NCBI RefSeq assembly: GCF_003990445.1
Contig: NZ_REEZ01000001.1
Span: 686,358-750,357 of the forward strand
Length of the DNA stretch: 64,000 nt
From: Pararhodobacter zhoushanensis
GTDB taxonomy: Bacteria; Pseudomonadota; Alphaproteobacteria; Rhodobacterales; Rhodobacteraceae
Direction: 5' to 3'
The position numbers and the translations under genes are program-made. The stretch's first letter is position 1. The number at the start of each line of letters is the position of its first letter. Positions 6,675-60,444 of the stretch are shown one piece after another. The notes beneath the pieces were generated by a model that was given only the letters and a program-made list of their open reading frames with translations, was not told where the DNA came from and did no database searches.

Positions 6675-7763
6675 TCAGGCCAGTTGCGCCATCAGCCCCC
6701 GCGCGATCCGCCGATAGCTCTCAGCAACGGCGCTATCCGTGGCCGCCACTGGGACACCGCCATCCCCCGACAGCCTGACCTCCAGCGTCAACGGCAACGA
6801 GCCGAGGAACGGGATGCCGGTCTTCTCGGCCTCGCGCGCAACGCCACCGTCACCGAAGATATGCTCCTCGTGCCCGCAGTTGGGGCAGATGAAGGTCGAC
6901 ATGTTCTCGATCAGCCCGATCACCGGCGTCTTCAGCGTCGAGAACGCGTTCAGCGCCCGGCGCGCATCCAGCAGCGCGACGTCCTGCGGCGTCGACACCA
7001 CAATTGCACCCGTTACGTCGAACTTCTGGCACAGCGTCATCTGCACGTCGCCCGTACCCGGCGGCATGTCGATGATCAGCGCATCCAGATCGCCCCAGGC
7101 CACCTGCGTCATCAACTGTTGCAGCGCCCCCATCAGCATCGGTCCGCGCCAGATCAGTGCCTGATCCTCGGGCAGCATCAGCCCGATCGAGATCACCCGC
7201 ACGCCATGCGCCACCGGCGGGATGATCGTCTTGCCATCGGGCGAGGCCGGGCGCTTGGATACGCCCATCATGCGCGGCTGGCTGGGGCCATAGATGTCGG
7301 CATCGACCAGACCCACCCGCCAGCCCTCGCGCGCCATGGCGACAGCAAGGTTTGCGGACACGGTGGATTTGCCCACCCCGCCCTTGCCCGAGCCGACCGC
7401 GATGATCCGCTTCACGCCGGGCACCACCGACGGACCGGGCGTCGGGTGACGACCGATACTGAGCGACGGGGCCTCACCCTTGGGCGCCTGTTGCTTGGGT
7501 GCCGGGCCATGCGCGGTCATCGCCACCGATACCCGCGCGACGCCGGGCAATGCCGCCACGACGCGCTCGGCCTCTGCGCGCACCGGATCCAGCGCGCGGG
7601 CCTCGTCAGCCGTCTCAGCCTCGATCACAAAGCGCACCGCGCCGCCATCGACGACCAGAGCCCGAATCAAATCGGCACTGACCAGATCACCGCCCTTCGG
7701 CAGCGCCACGCCCTTCAGGGCTGCAAGAATCTCTTCGCGCGTCGGCGCCGAGCTGGATGACAT
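6675..7763 (-). CDS. mrp: Mrp/ApbC-family iron-sulfur cluster carrier ATPase
   Basis: A soluble P-loop ATPase that binds a bridging 4Fe-4S cluster and delivers it to apo-enzymes. The 362-residue protein has an N-terminal MIP18/DUF59-like domain ([15 protein letters not shown] onwards), a deviant Walker [16 protein letters not shown] near residue 127, the [13 protein letters not shown] segment, and the conserved CPNC pair ([13 protein letters not shown]) that ligates the cluster at the dimer interface. The ATG giving [11 protein letters not shown] was preferred over a TTG two codons upstream. It is monocistronic, ends in its own hairpin and diverges from the DUF1127 gene. Confidence 0.93.
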
Positions 7764-8070
7764 GGGCAAAGCCCCCCTTTATTCCGAATCATTGCGCCTA
7801 ACCTGAGTGTGTTTACGCACAAGGCAACCCCCACCCGATTAAGCAGCCTGTGGCGAAAAATGCTGCAACTGCGAAACCTCAGGGCGGGCCCGGAGCGGAT
7901 TGGGCCGCGCGCCGGAAACTCAGGCGCTTAGGTTACCCTACGTCGCCATGACTTCGCTGCATAGCAGCGTTGCTCATTCGAGGGATTGTGCAAGTGCAGC
8001 ATAAAGTCCATCTTTGCTTCAACGGGGAAAGAAAATTGTCCAACCCCAGATGAACGAAAGAGTAGACACC
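7764..8070. other. Divergent intergenic region between mrp and the DUF1127 gene
   Basis: This 307-bp stretch carries no credible ORF. It must hold the mrp promoter (minus) and the promoter of the DUF1127/cuckoo RNA unit (plus). A small inverted repeat CGCTGC-ATA-GCAGCG occurs at about 7955-7969. In R. sphaeroides the equivalent promoter is read by the heat-shock sigma factors RpoHI/RpoHII; I could not place a convincing -35/-10 pair here. Confidence 0.5.
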
Positions 8071-8292
8071 ATGGCATACGCATCAACCCAGCAGACCCGC
8101 GGCTTTGGCCTCTTTGGCCAGATCGCTTCGGCTTTCGGTTCGCTGAGCGCCGCTTGGACCCGCTCGCGCGTCTATGTTCGCACCTACAACGAACTGAACG
8201 CACTGACCACCCGCGAGCTGGCCGATCTGGGCATCAGCCGCAGCATGATCACCCGCCTGGCTTACGAAGCAGCCTACGGCCGCGACGTCTAA
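8071..8292 (+). CDS. ccaF1: DUF1127 small basic protein, CcaF1-like RNA-binding protein
   Basis: A 73-residue protein whose C-terminal half carries the DUF1127 signature: YNELNALTTRELADLGISRSMITRLAYE, with the invariant R-E-L-x-D-L-G-I-x-R core. In R. sphaeroides the equivalent gene, ccaF1, lies directly upstream of the CcsR1-4 RNAs; its product binds RNA and assists maturation of those RNAs. The same arrangement follows here: four CCTCCTCCC-loop hairpin pairs begin about 40 nt after the stop, with no separate terminator in between. The ATG is preceded by GAAAGAG at suitable spacing. The symbol is assigned by synteny and family. Confidence 0.85.
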   Translation: MAYASTQQTRGFGLFGQIASAFGSLSAAWTRSRVYVRTYNELNALTTRELADLGISRSMITRLAYEAAYGRDV

Positions 8293-8329
8293 AAGGCAAA
8301 GAATTCCAGGCCCTTGGGCCTGCGACCAG

Positions 8330-8405
8330 AACGACGGCCCCTCCTCCTCCCTGGGCCGATCGTGCAAGGAACCGCTGCTACCTCCTCCCAGCGGCAGGTT
8401 CCGAC
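8330..8405 (+). ncRNA. ccsR1: Cuckoo RNA 1 (CcsR-like)
   Basis: Two consecutive hairpins present C/T-rich loops. Hairpin one: CGGCCC (8335-8340), loop CTCCTCCTCCCT, GGGCCG (8353-8358). Hairpin two: GGAACC/GGTTCC outer and GCTG/CAGC inner stems around a loop containing CCTCCTCC (8368-8402). Paired hairpins with CUCCUCCC loops define the cuckoo family of Rhodobacteraceae, processed from the DUF1127 transcript under stress. Ends are approximate. Confidence 0.8.
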
Positions 8406-8411
8406 CAGTAG

Positions 8412-8485
8412 CTTAGGCCCCTCCTCCTCCCTGGGCCGACAGCACTCCGGCGCGGTTCCCCTCCTCCTCCCTGGGAACCGCGCCC
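8412..8485 (+). ncRNA. ccsR2: Cuckoo RNA 2 (CcsR-like)
   Basis: Second copy of the two-hairpin unit. Hairpin one: GGCCC (8416-8420) and GGGCC (8433-8437) around CTCCTCCTCCCT. Hairpin two: a perfect 12-bp stem, GGCGCGGTTCCC (8449-8460) with GGGAACCGCGCC (8473-8484), again around CTCCTCCTCCCT. Loop sequences are identical to copy 1 while stems differ, showing conservation of loop and pairing rather than primary sequence. Confidence 0.8.
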
Positions 8486-8519
8486 CGAATTCCGGGGCCG
8501 AAGGGCTCCAAAACAGATA

Positions 8520-8593
8520 CGACGACCGAACCTCCTCCCTCGGTTTTCGTTATGGCGCGGCGGCTCCTCCTCCTCCCTGAGGCGCTGCGCCCC
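8520..8593 (+). ncRNA. ccsR3: Cuckoo RNA 3 (CcsR-like)
   Basis: Third copy. Hairpin one pairs ACGACCGA with TCGG...TCGT around ACCTCCTCCC (about 8522-8550). Hairpin two pairs GGCGCGGCG (from about 8554) with CGCTGCGCC around a larger loop with CTCCTCCTCCTCCC. It is separated from copy 2 by about 34 nt, a longer spacer than the others, and its stems contain a bulge and a G-U pair, so it may be the least stable member. Confidence 0.72.
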
Positions 8594-8597
8594 ATAG

Positions 8598-8675
8598 ACG
8601 GCGGGCCAGACCTCCTCCCCTGTCCCGCGAACGGCGCGGTTGCCCCTCCTCCTCCCTGGGCAACCGCGCTTTTTT
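8598..8675 (+). ncRNA. ccsR4: Cuckoo RNA 4 (CcsR-like) with built-in terminator
   Basis: Fourth copy. Hairpin one pairs GCGGG (8601-8605) with CCCGC (8624-8628) around a loop containing CCTCCTCCCC. Hairpin two is a perfect 12-bp stem, GCGCGGTTGCCC (8634-8645) with GGGCAACCGCGC (8658-8669), loop CTCCTCCTCCCT, followed at once by T6. The last hairpin therefore doubles as the terminator for the whole DUF1127-cuckoo transcript. Confidence 0.8.
8634..8675 (+). terminator. Intrinsic terminator of the DUF1127/cuckoo RNA unit
   Basis: A 12-bp perfect GC-rich stem with the 12-nt loop CTCCTCCTCCCT is followed by six T residues (8670-8675). It is the only hairpin of the array with a T-tract, so it should mark the 3' end of the precursor. 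Confidence 0.85.
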
Positions 8676-8762
8676 CATGTCTTAAGGGCACCCTGAAAGG
8701 CGCTGGAAAACCCGCATCTGCGGCATTTCATTCAACTGCTATAGTTAAGCGCTCGACTTCCC

Positions 8763-11165
8763 TCAGAAGGGAACGTCGTCCATCCCGTCAGCGGGCAGCA
8801 CATATTGCGACAGGATGTGCTTTTCCCCTGCCTGATCGAAGGCCACGGCCAGCTTGTCGCCATCGACCGCGATGATCGTGCCGGTGCCGAATTTCTTGTT
8901 GAACACCCGCTCACCGGCCGAAAAATGCACCGACGGCTCGGCCGAGCCGCGCAGGGCCTTGGGCGCCGCCGGGGCAACCCGGCCCCGCGACCGCATCCGT
9001 TTCCAGCCCGGCGCGTTATAGACATCGGCCCGCGTGGCGCGGCCTTCGAGCGAGTCATCATCGACCGGCGTCGCGTGATGCGCTTTGCCCGCGCTGAAAC
9101 CGCCATGAATGCCCGGCGGTGTCAGCACATCGACATGCTCGGGCGGCAATTCGTCGATGAACCGGCTGGGCAACTGGCTTTGCCACTGCCCGAACACCCG
9201 GCGGTTGGCCGCGAACGAGATCATGCACAGCCGCTCTGCCCGCGTGATGCCGACATAGGCCAGACGGCGTTCCTCTTCCAAGCCCTTGAGCCCGCTTTCA
9301 TCCAGACTGCGCTGGCTGGGGAACAGCCCGTCTTCCCAGCCGGGCAGGAAAACGGCGGGGAATTCCAGACCCTTGGCCGCGTGCAGGGTCATGATGGTGA
9401 CCTTTTCCTGCGATTCCTCGGCCTCGTTATCCATGATCAGCGCGACATGCTCCAGAAAGCCTTGCAGGCTGTCGAAGCCTTCCAGCGCCTTGATCAGTTC
9501 TTTCAGGTTCTCCAGCCGCCCCTCAGCCTCAGGCGTTTTTTGCGCCTGCCACATGGCGGTATAGCCGGATTCGTCCAGCATCATCTCGGCCAGCCGCACA
9601 TGCGAGACGCCCGGCGGCGGCGCGTCATCCTCGATCACCAGATCATCATTGGCCGACACCACCGGGCTGCGCACCATATCGTGCCAGCGCGCCATGCTTT
9701 CGATGAACGCGCGCAGATTGCCTGCCGCCTTGCCGCCCAAGAGCCCGTCGCGCAACACCAGCGCCGCGCCCATCAGCAGCGGCACCTCGGCCTCGCGCGC
9801 GACGCGCTGGATGGTCTGCTGCGCTTTGTCGCCAATGCCGCGTTTGGGGTTGTTCACCACCCGCTCGAACGCCAGATCATCGGTCGGGCTGACGGCGAGG
9901 CGGAAATACGCCATCGCATCGCGAATTTCCAAACGCTCATAGAATCGCGGGCCGCCGACCACGCGATACGGCAGGCCGATGGTCAGAAACCGATCCTCGA
10001 ACGCGCGCATCTGGTGGCTGGCGCGAACCAGAATCGCCATGTCATCGGGGCTGATCGGGTCCAGCCCGCGCGTGCCACGCTCCAGCGCCTCGACCTCATC
10101 GCCGATCCAGCGCGCCTCATCCTCGCCGTCCCAATGGCCGATCAGGCGGACCTTTTCGCCCTCGGTCGCCTCGGTCCACAGGGTCTTGCCCAGCCGCCCC
10201 TCATTGGCGCTGATCACGCCCGAGGCCGCGGCCAGAATATGCGGGGTCGAGCGGTAGTTCTGCTCAAGCCGGATCACCTTGGCACCCGGGAAATCCCGTT
10301 CAAACCGCAGGATGTTGCCGACCTCGGCCCCGCGCCAGCCATAGATCGACTGGTCATCATCACCGACGCAGCAGATATTCTGATGCCCCTGCGCAAGAAG
10401 CCGCAGCAGCAGGTACTGGGCGACGTTGGTGTCCTGATATTCGTCCACCAGAATGAACCGCAGCCAGCGCTGGTATTGCGCCAGCACATCGGGGTTCTGC
10501 TGGAAGATCGTCACCACATGCAGCAGCAAGTCACCGAAATCGCAGGCGTTCAGCGTGCGCAGCCGCTCTTGATAGGCCTCATACAGCTCGGTCCCGCGGT
10601 TGTTGAACGCGCCCGCTTCGGCCCCCGGCACCATATCCGGGCGCCATGCGCGGTTCTTCCAGCCGTCGATCAGATTGGCCAGCGCGCGGGCGGGCCAGCG
10701 TTTGTCATCCAGATTGGCGGCCTGAATGAGCTGCTTCATCAGCCGCAGCTGGTCATCGGTGTCAATGATGGTGAAGTTAGATTTCAGCCCCACCAGTTCC
10801 GCATGCCGGCGCAGGAAGCGCACGCCGATCGAGTGGAAGGTGCCCAGCCATGGCATCCCCTCAACCGCGTCGCCCAAAAGGCCACCGATCCGGTGCTTCA
10901 TCTCGCGCGCGGCTTTGTTGGTGAAGGTAACGGCCAGAATCTCATTCGGCCGCGCCGTGCCGGTCGAGATCAGATGCGCAATCCGGGCGGTCAGGGCGCG
11001 GGTCTTGCCGGTTCCAGCGCCCGCCAGCATCAGCACCGGACCATTCAGCGCCTCAACCGCGGCGCGCTGCTCGCTGTTCAGCCCATCCAGATACGCCGCC
11101 TGACGCGAGGCGGTGGCGCCTGCAAAGGCCATGGACGACAGGCTGGGCCGGTTCGAGTCGCTCAT
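8763..11165 (-). CDS. uvrD: UvrD/PcrA-type superfamily 1 DNA helicase
   Basis: A 3'-5' DNA helicase for repair and replication restart. The 800-residue protein has the Q-motif region LNSEQRAAVEA, Walker A AGAGTGKTRAL (about residue 50), motif Ia TFTNKAAREM, DEYQDTN, DDDQSIYGWRGAE, QNYRSTP, and the late motifs TLHAAKGLEFPAVFLPG and YVGITRAE. The C-terminus (VFNKKFGTGTIIAVDGDKLAV) is the Tudor-like fold found in PcrA/UvrD that contacts RNA polymerase. The ATG gives MSDSNRPSL. It is transcribed toward the cuckoo RNA array, ending 87 nt from the array's terminator. UvrD versus PcrA naming is a convention. Confidence 0.93.
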   Translation of the reverse strand: MSDSNRPSLSSMAFAGATASRQAAYLDGLNSEQRAAVEALNGPVLMLAGAGTGKTRALTARIAHLISTGTARPNEILAVTFTNKAAREMKHRIGGLLGDAVEGMPWLGTFHSIGVRFLRRHAELVGLKSNFTIIDTDDQLRLMKQLIQAANLDDKRWPARALANLIDGWKNRAWRPDMVPGAEAGAFNNRGTELYEAYQERLRTLNACDFGDLLLHVVTIFQQNPDVLAQYQRWLRFILVDEYQDTNVAQYLLLRLLAQGHQNICCVGDDDQSIYGWRGAEVGNILRFERDFPGAKVIRLEQNYRSTPHILAAASGVISANEGRLGKTLWTEATEGEKVRLIGHWDGEDEARWIGDEVEALERGTRGLDPISPDDMAILVRASHQMRAFEDRFLTIGLPYRVVGGPRFYERLEIRDAMAYFRLAVSPTDDLAFERVVNNPKRGIGDKAQQTIQRVAREAEVPLLMGAALVLRDGLLGGKAAGNLRAFIESMARWHDMVRSPVVSANDDLVIEDDAPPPGVSHVRLAEMMLDESGYTAMWQAQKTPEAEGRLENLKELIKALEGFDSLQGFLEHVALIMDNEAEESQEKVTIMTLHAAKGLEFPAVFLPGWEDGLFPSQRSLDESGLKGLEEERRLAYVGITRAERLCMISFAANRRVFGQWQSQLPSRFIDELPPEHVDVLTPPGIHGGFSAGKAHHATPVDDDSLEGRATRADVYNAPGWKRMRSRGRVAPAAPKALRGSAEPSVHFSAGERVFNKKFGTGTIIAVDGDKLAVAFDQAGEKHILSQYVLPADGMDDVPF

Positions 11166-56329: not shown

Positions 56330-57877
56330 TCAGGTGAAGTGAATGTTGAACCGGCTGCGCACCGCTCGGTCCGTGGCCGGGTCAATCTGGCTGGGTGCCA
56401 TCGCCAGAATATCCGCCGTGCGCTTCTTGGCGGCGTCCAGCAGCATCGGCCGCCCCGCCTCGCCCCATTCCTTGGGGCTCATTCGGTTGGCGACCGCCGG
56501 ATAGATGTATTCGGTCTGCATCAGTTTCAGCGTCTGATCGGTGCCCAGATAATGCCCCGGCCCGCCCAGACAGACCTCTTTCATCACCTCCAGCGATACC
56601 GAGTCCTCGGTAACGTCGATGCCCCGCACGCATCTGAGCGCCTGTCCCAGCAGATCATCCCCCAGCGTGATCGATTCAAAGCTGAACCCCAGCAATGAGG
56701 CATGCATGCCTACCGCCTCGTAGCACAGGTTCAGCCCGGCCAGCCCGGCCAGCGTGTTGGTGATGCCCTGCTCCCAACCCGCCTGCATATCGGGCAGTTT
56801 GCTGTCGGAAATGCCGCTCGCCGCCCCGCCGGGCAGCCCGTAGAACCGGTGCATCTGCGCGCAGCCCGCTGTCAGCAGCGCCTGCTCGGCACTGCCGCCC
56901 GACATCGCCCCGGTGCGCAGATCGCTGACGAAGGGCCATGTGCCGAACACCGCCGGATGGCCGGGCGACATGGCGTTGACATAGACCACGCCCGCCAGAC
57001 ATTCCGCCACCGCCTGCACGATGGTGGCGGCGATCGGCGCGGGGCTAGTCGCCCCCGCCTGCCCGGCTGACAGCAGCAGCACCGGCATGCCCGCGCGGAT
57101 GCAGGCCTCCATGGTGACGCAGCTTTCCTCGGCAAATTTCATCGGCGGGACGACGAAGCAGTTGGAGTTGCTCACGAAAGGCCGCGCGCGCCACGCCTCT
57201 TCGCCGCCCGCCACCATATGCAACAGCTCAAAGCTCCCCGCCACATGCGCAGGGTCGCTGAACGAGGTGCCGACATGCTTGGTCGTCCCTGCCAGCGCGC
57301 CGTAAAGCGTGTTGATATCCATGTCGAAATTGTCGACCACATCGCGGCAGACACAGATCCGCTGGAAGAAATGCACATTGTCCAGATGGTGCACCAGCCG
57401 CGCCGCGTCGTGCAGATCCTGCGCGGTCGACTCGCGGTAGCTGTTGGTCTCCAGATCGACCACATGCACCGCCGCGCCCGCCGTGCCGTAATGCACCCGC
57501 GTGCCCTCAAGATGCAGATCGTAGCGCGGATCCCGACCATGCAGGGTGATGCCGCGCGCCGCCTTGGCCAGCATGTCCTCGACCAGCGCGCGCGGATAGC
57601 GCAGCCGCCCGTCACCGCCCAGAATGGCCCCGGCCCGCGTCATGATCTCGATGCCCGATTGCGGCGCATTGGCCAGCCCGATGACCTCCAGCGCCTCCAG
57701 CGCCGCCGCATGGAGGCGCTGTACCGAGGCCGCGCTCAGCGGGTTGTATTGCCCGCCTGACATCCCCGCCCGTACCGGGCGCAGCGTCTCTTCCAAAGGT
57801 GCCGCGCGCAGCGCAACCCGCGCCCCGCGCCCCCCATTCCGCCGCGCCTTTGCAGGCGCACAGTGATCGTTTGCCAA
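56330..57877 (-). CDS. MttB-family (non-pyrrolysine) methylamine:corrinoid methyltransferase
   Basis: A 515-residue TIM-barrel methyltransferase of the trimethylamine methyltransferase family; members without pyrrolysine demethylate glycine betaine, proline betaine or carnitine onto a corrinoid protein. Matching segments: RPVRAGMSGGQYNPLS, VHYGTAGAAVHVVDL, FSDPAHVAGSFELLHMVAGG, SAGQAGATSPAPIAAT and GGAASGISDSKLPDMQAGWEQ. The frame is open throughout, with no in-frame amber. A TTG start was chosen (LANDHCAPAKARRNGGRGAR..), with GGAG 8-9 nt upstream; frames beginning further upstream run through repeat copy D. Last gene of the four-gene operon. Confidence 0.85.
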   Translation of the reverse strand: MANDHCAPAKARRNGGRGARVALRAAPLEETLRPVRAGMSGGQYNPLSAASVQRLHAAALEALEVIGLANAPQSGIEIMTRAGAILGGDGRLRYPRALVEDMLAKAARGITLHGRDPRYDLHLEGTRVHYGTAGAAVHVVDLETNSYRESTAQDLHDAARLVHHLDNVHFFQRICVCRDVVDNFDMDINTLYGALAGTTKHVGTSFSDPAHVAGSFELLHMVAGGEEAWRARPFVSNSNCFVVPPMKFAEESCVTMEACIRAGMPVLLLSAGQAGATSPAPIAATIVQAVAECLAGVVYVNAMSPGHPAVFGTWPFVSDLRTGAMSGGSAEQALLTAGCAQMHRFYGLPGGAASGISDSKLPDMQAGWEQGITNTLAGLAGLNLCYEAVGMHASLLGFSFESITLGDDLLGQALRCVRGIDVTEDSVSLEVMKEVCLGGPGHYLGTDQTLKLMQTEYIYPAVANRMSPKEWGEAGRPMLLDAAKKRTADILAMAPSQIDPATDRAVRSRFNIHFT

Positions 57878-57882
57878 CTTTA

Positions 57883-57985
57883 TGCTCCAAATATCCACGG
57901 GGGGTTTCCAAAGGGGGGTGCGTGCGCCCCCCTTGGGCGAGGGGGGCCCGGGGGGGCGAGCAGCCCCCCCGGATCTTGCTTTGTG
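57883..57985. repeat. Dispersed palindromic repeat, copy D
   Basis: CCAAATATCCACGGGGGG, then TTTCCAAAGGGGGGTGCGTG with its mirror GCGCCCCCCTTGGG, then a GGGGGGCGAGCAGCCCCCCC palindrome. Orientation as copy A, right half only. It lies inside the operon between the FAD/GcvT gene and the MttB gene; its edge supplies the GGAG that serves as the MttB ribosome site. Confidence 0.72.
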
Positions 57986-58014
57986 GCGGGGGGCCGAATA
58001 GCCCCCCGGTTTCG

Positions 58015-60444
58015 TCACATGCGAACGCGCAAGGCCTTCGGGTCATAGAGCGGCGCCAGCGACGGCCGCGCCGCCACCCGCCGCCCGGCAATGTCGATCT
58101 CATACGCCCCGGCCAGCAGATCCTCGCCCGGCGCGCAGGGCACGTAGCCCATGGCGACCGAAGCCCCCAGCGCATGCCCGTAATTGCCCGAGCTGACCGT
58201 GCCCACGATCCGCCCGTCGCGCCAGATCGGCTCGTTGTGATAGGCCATCGCGGCGGGGTCCGAGAGCAGAAATTGCACCATCCGGCGGGTCTGCCCGGCC
58301 TCGCGCTTGCGCAGCACCGCGTCGCGGCCGATGAAATCGCCCTTGCCCGTCCTGACCGCGAAACCAAGCCCGGCCTCAAGCACGTGATCCTCATCGGTGA
58401 TGTCGTGGCCCCAGTGCCGAAAGCCCTTCTCGATGCGGCAGCTGTCGAGCGCGTGCAGACCGCAGAGCGCCATCTCGGGCGCAGCCTCGACCAGCGTCTC
58501 GAACACATGCGCGGCCTGATCGGTGCTGACATAGAGCTCCCAGCCCAGCTCGCCCACGTAAGACACCCGGTGCGCGCGGGCCAGACCAAGGCCAAGTTCG
58601 ATTGTTTGCGCGGTGGCATAGGGGAAAGTGTCATTGTCCAGCGCCGCCGGGCTGACCCGCGCCAGCACATCGCGCGCCTGCGGGCCCATCAGGCAGAGCA
58701 CGGCCTCGCCCGCCGTCACATCGGTGATCACCGCAAAGGCATCGCCGACATGCCGCCGCAGCCAGGCCAGATCGCGCTGCAGCGTCGCGCCGGGGACAAC
58801 CAGCAGGAAGGCGCTCTCGGACAGGCGCGTCACGGTCAGGTCGCTCTCGATCCCGCCGCGGTCGTTGAGCATCTGCGTATAGACGATGCGCCCCGCCGCC
58901 AAATCGACATCATTGGCGCAGACCCGTTGCAGGAACGCGCACGCATCGCGCCCCTCGACCCGGATCTTGCCGAACGAGGTCATATCGAACAGCCCGACGC
59001 CGGTGCGCACCGCCAGATGTTCGGCCTTCTGGTTGCCAAACCAGTTCTGCGGCCCCCAGGCATAGCGGTATTCGCGTTCCTGCCCCGGGTTGGCGAACCA
59101 GTTCGCACGCTCCCATCCCGCCACTTCGCCAAACACCGCGCCGCGCGCCTCCAGATGCGTGTGCAGGGGCGAGCGACGGACGCCGCGCGCGGTTTCGACC
59201 TGCCGATACGGGAAGTGATCGGCATAGAGCAGGCCCAGCGTCTCGGTCACCCTTTCCTTCAGATAGCGGCGATTGCGCTGGAACGGCTGCGCGCGGCGGA
59301 TGTCGACGTCCCACAGATCAAACGGCGCCTCGCCTTGCGTCATCCAATGCGCCAGCGCCATCCCCGCCCCGCCGGACGACACGATCCCCACCGAATTATA
59401 CCCCGCCGCGACCCAGTAATTGCCCAATTCCGGCGCGGGGCCGAGGTAGTAGCGATCATCCGGCGTAAAGCTTTCGGGACCGTTAAAGAACGTGTGGATG
59501 CCGGCGGTTTCAAACAGCGGCATACGGTTCATCGCCATGCCGAGGATCGGCTCGAAATGCTCGAAATCCTCGGGCAGGCTGTCGAAGCAGAAATCCTCAG
59601 GAATGCCCGCCATGCCCCAGGGTTTTGCCTTGGGCTCAAACGCGCCCAGCATCATTTTCCCGGCGTCTTCCTTGTAATAGGCGCATTCATCGGGCACGCG
59701 CAGCACCGGCAGGCGGCCCAAGCCCTCGATCGGTTCGGTCACCAGATAGAAGTGCTCAGCGGCATGCAGCGGCAGCGTGACGCCTGAAGCCGCCGCCAGA
59801 TCGCGGCCCCACATGCCGCCGCAATTCACCACATGCTCGCAGGCGATCACCCCGGCCTCGCCCGCCGCCTCGTAGGCGACGCCGGTGACCCGCGCGCCAT
59901 CATCCAACACCTTCGTGACCTTGACGCCCTCATGCACCTGCGCGCCGCGCATCCGCGCGCCCTTGGCCAGCGCCAGCGCGATGTTGCCGGGATCACATTG
60001 GCCATCGAGCGGCAGATGCACGGCCCCCACCACATCGCCGACGTTGAGATGCGGGTACATCGCCTTGACCTGCGCCGGGCTGATCTCATCGACGGCGACG
60101 TCAAAGGCGCGGGCCAGCGCGGCCGAGCGATAGAGTTCCTCTCGCCGCGCCTCGGTCAGCGCGACGCTGATCGAGCCGGTCTGGCGCATGCCGGTGGCGA
60201 TGCCGGTCTCCTCCTCGAGCCGGACGTAGAGATCGGCGGAATATTTGGCGAGGCGGGTCATGTTCAGCGAGCCGCGCAGCTGGCCGATCAGCCCCGCCGC
60301 GTGCCAGGTGGTGCCGCAGGTCAGTTGCTTGCGTTCCAGCAGGACGATGTCGGTCCAGCCAGCCTTGGCCAGATGATAGGCAACCGAGCAGCCCGATATG
60401 CCCCCGCCAATAATCACCACACGGGCATGAGTTGGCAGGGGCAT
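58015..60444 (-). CDS. FAD-dependent dehydrogenase fused to GcvT domain (dimethylglycine/sarcosine dehydrogenase-like), 1
   Basis: An 809-residue cytosolic flavoprotein. The N-terminal DAO domain starts with the dinucleotide motif VVIIGGGISGCSVAYHL and has TTWHAAGLIGQLR, where the His corresponds to the covalent FAD anchor of dimethylglycine dehydrogenase. From about residue 420 an FAO_M linker and a GcvT folate-binding domain follow (FGKIRVEGRDACAFLQRVCAND, YVGELGWELYV, ALDSCRIEKGFRHWGHD). It would oxidise N-methyl groups and pass formaldehyde to THF. It starts 10 nt after the homocysteine methyltransferase stop. Confidence 0.88.
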   Translation of the reverse strand: MPLPTHARVVIIGGGISGCSVAYHLAKAGWTDIVLLERKQLTCGTTWHAAGLIGQLRGSLNMTRLAKYSADLYVRLEEETGIATGMRQTGSISVALTEARREELYRSAALARAFDVAVDEISPAQVKAMYPHLNVGDVVGAVHLPLDGQCDPGNIALALAKGARMRGAQVHEGVKVTKVLDDGARVTGVAYEAAGEAGVIACEHVVNCGGMWGRDLAAASGVTLPLHAAEHFYLVTEPIEGLGRLPVLRVPDECAYYKEDAGKMMLGAFEPKAKPWGMAGIPEDFCFDSLPEDFEHFEPILGMAMNRMPLFETAGIHTFFNGPESFTPDDRYYLGPAPELGNYWVAAGYNSVGIVSSGGAGMALAHWMTQGEAPFDLWDVDIRRAQPFQRNRRYLKERVTETLGLLYADHFPYRQVETARGVRRSPLHTHLEARGAVFGEVAGWERANWFANPGQEREYRYAWGPQNWFGNQKAEHLAVRTGVGLFDMTSFGKIRVEGRDACAFLQRVCANDVDLAAGRIVYTQMLNDRGGIESDLTVTRLSESAFLLVVPGATLQRDLAWLRRHVGDAFAVITDVTAGEAVLCLMGPQARDVLARVSPAALDNDTFPYATAQTIELGLGLARAHRVSYVGELGWELYVSTDQAAHVFETLVEAAPEMALCGLHALDSCRIEKGFRHWGHDITDEDHVLEAGLGFAVRTGKGDFIGRDAVLRKREAGQTRRMVQFLLSDPAAMAYHNEPIWRDGRIVGTVSSGNYGHALGASVAMGYVPCAPGEDLLAGAYEIDIAGRRVAARPSLAPLYDPKALRVRM

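Follow-up and report, generated by a model that had tools for sequence, protein, structure and literature searches.

A ccaF1-cuckoo type regulatory RNA locus with a changed layout in Pararhodobacter zhoushanensis

The 64-kb stretch of DNA analyzed here (hereafter the window), which is part of the 4.83-Mb genome of Pararhodobacter zhoushanensis, contains a real regulatory RNA locus, known in kind and changed in layout. The best explanation, which we hold to be highly probable, is that it is the Pararhodobacter ccaF1-cuckoo RNA (CIN1-type) locus: a single transcript would carry a DUF1127 protein and eight anti-Shine-Dalgarno (anti-SD) loops, be cut by RNase E, and act by blocking Shine-Dalgarno (SD) sequences. 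The features are listed below by position in the window.

6675-7769, - strand: Mrp/ApbC-type iron-sulfur carrier ATPase, upstream neighbor and locus marker (PF10609, E 5e-97)
7957-7967, + strand: CTGCATAGCAG, match to the published R. sphaeroides PhaR sequence CTGCNNNGCAG (YGCN3GCR core 5' of box 2 in all 44 of 48 promoters where box 2 was found)
7986-8001, + strand: conserved box TTGTGCANNYGCAGCA (box 2), with TTG 7986-7988 at -36 to -34 of a predicted RpoH-type promoter (alignment of 21 upstream regions)
8008-8014, + strand: predicted -10 element CCATCTT, A-12 at 8010 and T-9 at 8013, predicted transcription start at about 8022 (alignment and published positions)
8071-8292, + strand: CcaF1-type DUF1127 gene, 73 aa (PF06568, E 6e-12, 45.5 bits)
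8301-8322, + strand: punctuation element 1, GAATTCC running into the hairpin CAGGCC-CTTG-GGCCTG, without a cuckoo loop (fold, genus comparison)
8331-8363, + strand: cuckoo hairpin 1, loop 8341-8352 (resembles the first hairpin of Cereibacter unit 2)
8368-8402, + strand: cuckoo hairpin 2, loop 8380-8389 (fold, compensatory pairs among relatives)
8416-8437, + strand: cuckoo hairpin 3, five-pair core, loop 8421-8432 (fold)
8449-8484, + strand: cuckoo hairpin 4, loop 8461-8472 (fold)
8487-8509, + strand: punctuation element 2, GAATTCC then the hairpin GGGGCC-GAAG-GGCTCC, boundary between blocks (genus linkers, fold)
8519-8550, + strand: cuckoo hairpin 5, weakest stem, loop 8530-8539 (arm energies, fold)
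8554-8591, + strand: cuckoo hairpin 6, loop 8567-8578 (fold)
8601-8628, + strand: cuckoo hairpin 7, loop 8610-8619 (fold)
8634-8675, + strand: cuckoo hairpin 8, loop 8646-8657, twelve-pair stem plus T-run, shared intrinsic terminator (fold, terminator alignment)
8763-11165, - strand: PcrA/UvrD helicase, downstream neighbor and locus marker (PF00580, E 3e-90)

The Pfam match to PF06568 confirmed the claim of the earlier note that a DUF1127 gene lies directly 5' of the hairpins; its stop is at 8292, and the earliest loop motif starts at 8343. Of the 17 array loci in other genomes of the same genus, all have mrp next to the array and 16 have uvrD there, the sole miss being L017, whose contig stops shortly past the array. 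The comparison with ccaF1-ccsR1-4 was made on Cereibacter azotoformans, C. johrii, C. ovatus, and C. changlensis as congeners of R. (Cereibacter) sphaeroides, and both genes lie near the arrays in all four species; at a second C. johrii locus (L095), the contig runs out before the neighbors are reached. Because the mrp and pcrA/uvrD flanks are common to the window, the same genus, and Cereibacter, the Pararhodobacter locus is the positional orthologue of the ccaF1-ccsR1-4 locus, and therefore a locus of known kind.

The loop motif CCTCCTCCC starts at 8343, 8381, 8423, 8463, 8531, 8569, 8611, and 8648 on the + strand and was not found elsewhere in the 64-kb window on either strand. Dinucleotide shuffles of 8293-8680 (n = 2000) contained 0.07 motifs on average and 100 shuffles of the entire window 0.31, with a maximum of 2 in each case. 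In the minimum-energy fold, all eight motifs lie inside open hairpin loops, and CCUCCUCCC likewise occurs in eight of eight loops. When the arms were swapped among hairpins, the own 3' arm was the best partner of the 5' arm in seven of the eight, and the energy sum of the native combination (-148.2 kcal/mol) was matched by none of 20,000 random permutations, the best of which reached -136.8. The shuffles, the fold, and the permutations thus bear out the description of eight hairpins with a common loop whose stems have diverged with pairing kept. The arm-swap preference was lower in some relatives with similar arms, where the own partner was best in 5/9 (L014), 4/8 (L016), and 15/26 (L077) hairpins. 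Tandem Repeats Finder saw no array of hairpins in the window. The array is the only place in its own genome with two motifs 25 to 55 nt apart.

The unit-1 alignment comprised 19 sequences (15 Pararhodobacter rows and four from Cereibacter; L010, L015, and L012, a near copy of the window, were omitted), and 97.9% of its cells were paired, although the structure came from the very alignment on which it was then tested, a bias in its favor. Covariation was 0.267 versus 0.114 in shuffles, and two-sided changes amounted to 23 cells versus 8.8, with none of 500 shuffles as high in either measure. The number of pairs with a two-sided change in unit 1 was 4, not above the shuffles, and helix 1 is hardly variable. 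A T-run (six T, 8670-8675) follows hairpin 8 only, in agreement with the single shared terminator that had been described; L029, L010, L012, and L015 were omitted from the terminator alignment. The arm energies of hairpins 1 to 8 were -16.6, -18.3, -13.4, -25.5, -11.8, -23.5, -12.7, and -26.4 kcal/mol. The third unit had been said to have weaker stems and a longer spacer: hairpin 5 does have the weakest stem of all, but the stems of pair 1 (-34.9) are no stronger than those of pair 3 (-35.3), and the longer spacer falls 5' of hairpin 5, at a block boundary.

The grouping into four two-hairpin units given in the earlier note did not hold. The loops are spaced at 38, 42, 40, 68, 38, 42, and 37 nt, a series without pairs, and GAATTCC followed by a short GC hairpin precedes both hairpin 1 and hairpin 5; two punctuated blocks of four hairpins are therefore the better reading. 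Long linkers were compared in nine genus arrays, with the near copies L012 and L019 left out: every array has one or more long linkers with ATTC immediately 5' of a GGGG hairpin, 11 of 19 long linkers overall, and the element is missing from the remaining 8 of 19. Of 18 genus loci, 12 have an exact AATTCC 5' of hairpin 1 and most of the rest have a variant of it; none of the four Cereibacter loci examined has the exact sequence. The stretch 5' of hairpin 1 was also considered as a loop-less remnant of the first CcsR1 hairpin, and this was rejected; its stem varies in the genus, yet the AATTCC-like stretch is mostly kept, and it is therefore read as a punctuation element. Pararhodobacter arrays carry four to 11 exact motifs, the divergent L010 excepted. 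Seven genus members (L017, L018, L020, L021, L023, L024, and L025) carry exactly four, which together with the linker elements makes an initial block of four, followed by further blocks, the natural reading. The 70 to 80-nt products predicted earlier thus compete with two products of about 186 to 190 nt.

That four two-hairpin RNAs of 70 to 80 nt are released, as with CcsR1-4 in R. sphaeroides, is possible but rather unlikely, and this alternative concerns the packaging step alone. Spaced pairs are what the Cereibacter arrays show (39, 66, 37, 76, 39, 74, and 39 nt between loops in C. johrii), the linkers within pairs of the window are mostly shorter (about 4, 11, 3, and 5 nt) than those between them (13, 34, and 9 nt), the CcsR1 model gives pair-like matches at 8329, 8408, and 8593 with a fourth at about 8516 in the own-genome search, and cutting at linkers 2-3 and 6-7 could still yield pairs. 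These points are set against the near-even loop spacing inside the blocks (38, 42, 40 and 38, 42, 37), the sole long linker, which with the GAATTCC elements delimits blocks of four, and the seven genus members with exactly four exact motifs. In the predicted minimum-energy fold, the two GAAUUC sites pair with each other, and RNase E would thereby be denied them.

A different role for the array, mainly in cis, was also weighed: the hairpins would form a stabilizing or CcaF1-binding 3' UTR and terminator of the DUF1127 mRNA, and the loops would have no mRNA targets. The array does lie directly behind the DUF1127 gene in most loci examined, and CcaF1 is reported to participate in the processing of its own transcript in R. 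sphaeroides (PMC10253847). We nevertheless regard this role as improbable, given that the loop letters are conserved while the stems change, a constancy that a protective stem would not need, and that the related NfeR1 loops are described as silencing mRNAs in trans (PMC10746234) and FlhR mRNA as a target of CcsR1-4 (PMC8307010). Chance or low-complexity C/T repeats, or a protein-coding repeat, have virtually no chance of accounting for the array, even with overlapping open frames of 88 to 141 aa on both strands; the shuffles, the arm swap, and the covariation contradict them, and place and strand are conserved.

Two boxes and a -10-like element are shared when the upstream regions of the window and of 20 of the 80 named loci are aligned, except that box 2 is missing from L114; the -10-like element reads CCAT in 13 of the 21 regions, TATCTT in six (in place of CCATNTT), and other letters in two. 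The positions of TTG, A-12, and T-9 are those named for RpoHI/RpoHII (PMC3441632), and CcsR1-4 are reported to be under alternative sigma factors including RpoHI/RpoHII (PMC8307010). The promoter fits these positions, and an RpoH-type promoter is predicted, in keeping with the stress induction suggested earlier.

The 5'-most box corresponds to CTGCNNNGCAG, the PhaR sequence reported for R. sphaeroides (PMC12542648). The single exact match in the window (7957-7967) has no weight alone, as 2.9 are expected per window by chance. Box 2 was found in 44 of 48 promoters (L084-L131), each of the 44 with a YGCN3GCR core no more than 45 nt 5' of the box, versus a mean of 2.2 and a maximum of 8 in shuffles, although the loci are related and so not independent. 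Conservation of this core carries weight as sequence evidence, but another TGC-box regulator is possible because no more than 19 of the 44 related promoters retain the exact palindrome. All 15 recognized phasin genes of the genus, out of 22 loci (in the other seven, the start was unrecognized by the pattern), carry a CTGCNNNGCAG box, and 14 carry two, 28 to 29 bp apart; the double boxes at L203 and other phasin loci of L195-L212 represent a clean PhaR-type operator for the genus. In the own genome, a PhaR-type protein is encoded beside the phasin gene. The double-box pattern with three middle bases in each box found the phasin promoter of this genome and not the present locus, where box 2 has four middle bases.

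Box 2 (TTGTGCANNYGCAGCA) is present in 15 of 19 genus genomes (control, 0). Of ten of its places examined away from ccaF1, one lies before a DUF1127-like gene, two lie before an acetyltransferase-like frame, and seven have no recognizable gene start nearby. L231 (G014) has, at about position 1501 of the reversed strand, a comparable two-box promoter in front of a second DUF1127-like gene (74 aa, read by eye), and this promoter type may define a DUF1127 regulon. At about position 1501 of L215 (G010) and L223 (G017), TTGTGCAGGTGCAGCA lies 54 bp 5' of an acetyl-CoA acetyltransferase-like frame (by eye), which would suit a PHB-linked regulator, since an enzyme of this kind would serve the first step to PHB. 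The product of the pyruvate dehydrogenase complex also feeds PHB. CcsR RNAs are reported to affect this complex (PMC8625941), and S. meliloti PhaR (AniA) to repress MmgR (PMC12542648), an sRNA that has a link to PHB and contains an anti-SD motif. The PhaR-type box suggests that carbon storage may be tied to the stress RNA locus. No title joining PhaR to the ccaF1-cuckoo locus was among the matches listed in the literature search.

The mechanism that we propose borrows several steps from R. sphaeroides, in which ccsR is described as co-transcribed with ccaF1, with RNase E and CcaF1 involved (PMC10253847, PMC8625941, PMC8307010) and CcaF1 taking part in the processing of its own transcript (PMC10253847). 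One transcript from the predicted RpoH-type promoter would encode a small, putatively RNA-binding DUF1127 protein and carry in its 3' UTR the eight hairpins, whose loops would copy the anti-SD sequence, and hairpin 8 would terminate transcription. The AU-rich GAAUUCC sites are the probable places at which RNase E, for which a preference for AU-rich single strands is reported (PMC6238624), would cut the transcript with the aid of the DUF1127 protein; two RNAs of about 186 to 190 nt, with four loops each, would result. Pairing of the loops with ribosome sites of the GGAGGAGG type would then keep stress-time mRNAs from being translated and promote their decay. By analogy with NfeR1, which is described as silencing mRNAs via anti-SD loops (PMC10746234), and with CcsR1-4, for which FlhR mRNA is reported as a target (PMC8307010), such blocking of ribosome sites is likely. 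Effects on C1 metabolism are known from R. sphaeroides only.

GGGAGGAGGN4-11ATG occurs at three places in the own genome (reversed control, 0). One (L045) lies 5' of a TRAP-type substrate-binding protein gene (named from the translation), with the same 19 letters in G018, and another (L044) 5' of a small YrhK-like frame that has ureE- and ureF-like genes on either side (named from translations); the third has no clear gene assignment. Across the genus, 15 of 19 genomes have it, with 61 places versus 11 for the control, a comparison of matched letters and not of genes. These matches are ordinary strong ribosome sites and are not claimed as targets.

Elsewhere in the window, an Rfam PYLIS_3 match (45.1 bits) lies at 56713-56812 on the - strand, inside the ORF 56330-58018 (-). 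This ORF is an uninterrupted MTTB-family frame (PF06253, E 9e-106) that scored 323.6 of 525 bits with the pyrrolysine-type model, below the cut-off, and it is probably a non-pyrrolysine MTTB homologue; the PYLIS_3 match is therefore taken to reflect gene homology.

The association of DUF1127 genes with loop motifs extends beyond the genus. Among L009-L031, 21 of 22 loci with a motif have a DUF1127 gene beside the array (profile seeded from nine such proteins). At least two motifs lie within 1.5 kb downstream on the same strand at 45 of 48 DUF1127 loci (L084-L131) and at 23 of 32 others (L132-L163), and within that distance none of the 80 loci has motifs on the opposite strand; three of the 32 have motifs upstream of the DUF1127 gene. 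In the reverse direction, the loop pattern picked out 33 loci; at 25 of them a DUF1127 gene ends less than 130 nt 5' of a motif, and six of the eight without a near stop have two motifs. A close motif pair occurs in 142 of 198 family genomes (one per genus), whereas a reversed control pattern matches in 29.

Motif number behind the DUF1127 genes of relatives varies from none or one to 26 and is therefore not taken as defining for the wider ccaF1-CcsR (CIN1-type) kind. At L077 (G199:C1:333500-336900), 26 loop motifs stand in a row directly behind the DUF1127 gene, and Tandem Repeats Finder resolved the G199 array into a 140-bp three-hairpin unit with 6.5 copies and 97% matches. Close motif pairs at one place each number 15 in G084, 14 in G141, and 13 in G052. 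At L010 (G014), the same locus holds a diverged array with some loops altered and long gaps, and no array was found in the genome G013 (70% complete). The locus thus keeps its place, upstream boxes, and loops in most of the Rhodobacterales examined but varies in the number and packaging of its hairpins; the arrangement of R. sphaeroides as four pairs is accordingly one of several solutions. These natural variants make it possible to ask what number of anti-SD loops is required in an RNA and how cutting of the precursor proceeds.

Beyond what is described for such loci, the present analysis contributes the reading as two blocks, the variation in array length, and a candidate PhaR box. Taken jointly, they allow a tentative and on the whole doubtful reading of cuckoo loci as expandable, punctuated arrays of anti-SD loops. 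Units would be gained or lost through tandem duplication, with the first block and the terminator hairpin staying fixed at either end, loop number would set the dose, and GAAUUC plus GC hairpin elements would mark the cuts. The operon would be wired both to heat and singlet-oxygen stress, through RpoH, and to carbon storage, through a PHB-sensing PhaR binding CTGCNNNGCAG and the TTGTGCANNYGCAGCA box that overlaps the -35 region.

A covariance search of the kind proposed in the earlier note gave, at Rfam gathering cut-offs, no cuckoo match in the window: the CcsR1 model (RF02791) scored 40.6, 36.7, 29.8, and 18.1 bits against a gathering threshold of 65.3, and alpha-r14 (RF02344) 44.5 and 34.3 bits against 58.8, with 69.5 in Gemmobacter lutimaris L110. 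The three best CcsR1 matches of the own genome fall in this array. As a positive control, CcsR1 scored 83.8 to 106.2 bits with unit 1 of four Cereibacter loci and 73.2 in L110; the later units of the four Cereibacter loci scored 39 to 56 bits, likewise below 65.3. Judged by these scores, the units in the window appear similar to later Cereibacter units and not to strict CcsR1. The low-threshold CcsR1 search (E up to 10) was unspecific, giving matches in 12 of 14 control genomes, and weak matches without the loop motif were therefore set aside.

The earlier interpretation is thus supported in part, but the statement that the locus reproduces ccsR1-4 is not. In common with the Cereibacter ccaF1-ccsR loci are the ccaF1-type DUF1127 gene, cuckoo-type hairpins with CCUCCUCCC loops, the place in the mrp/uvrD neighborhood, the upstream boxes, and one terminator, and hairpins 1 and 2 of the window resemble Cereibacter unit 2; strict CcsR1 is lacking. 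Cereibacter arrays consist of spaced pairs, four in three species and six in C. changlensis, whereas the window has two blocks of four; in Cereibacter, the apparent terminator is a separate hairpin that lacks the full motif, whereas in the window the last cuckoo hairpin has the T-run. Like the window, alpha-r14/NfeR1 of Sinorhizobium is described with several hairpins, the same anti-SD loop, and variable stems; unlike it, NfeR1 has three hairpins and its own promoter, and the available description names no DUF1127 gene. The cuckoo family is described with two to four hairpins. SmelA075 and SmelA099 (RFM families of the cuckoo RNA family), described as Rhizobiales sRNA families with several copies per genome, share with the window adjacent hairpins, three or four of them, carrying CCUCCUCCC, and their four-hairpin form resembles one block of the window.
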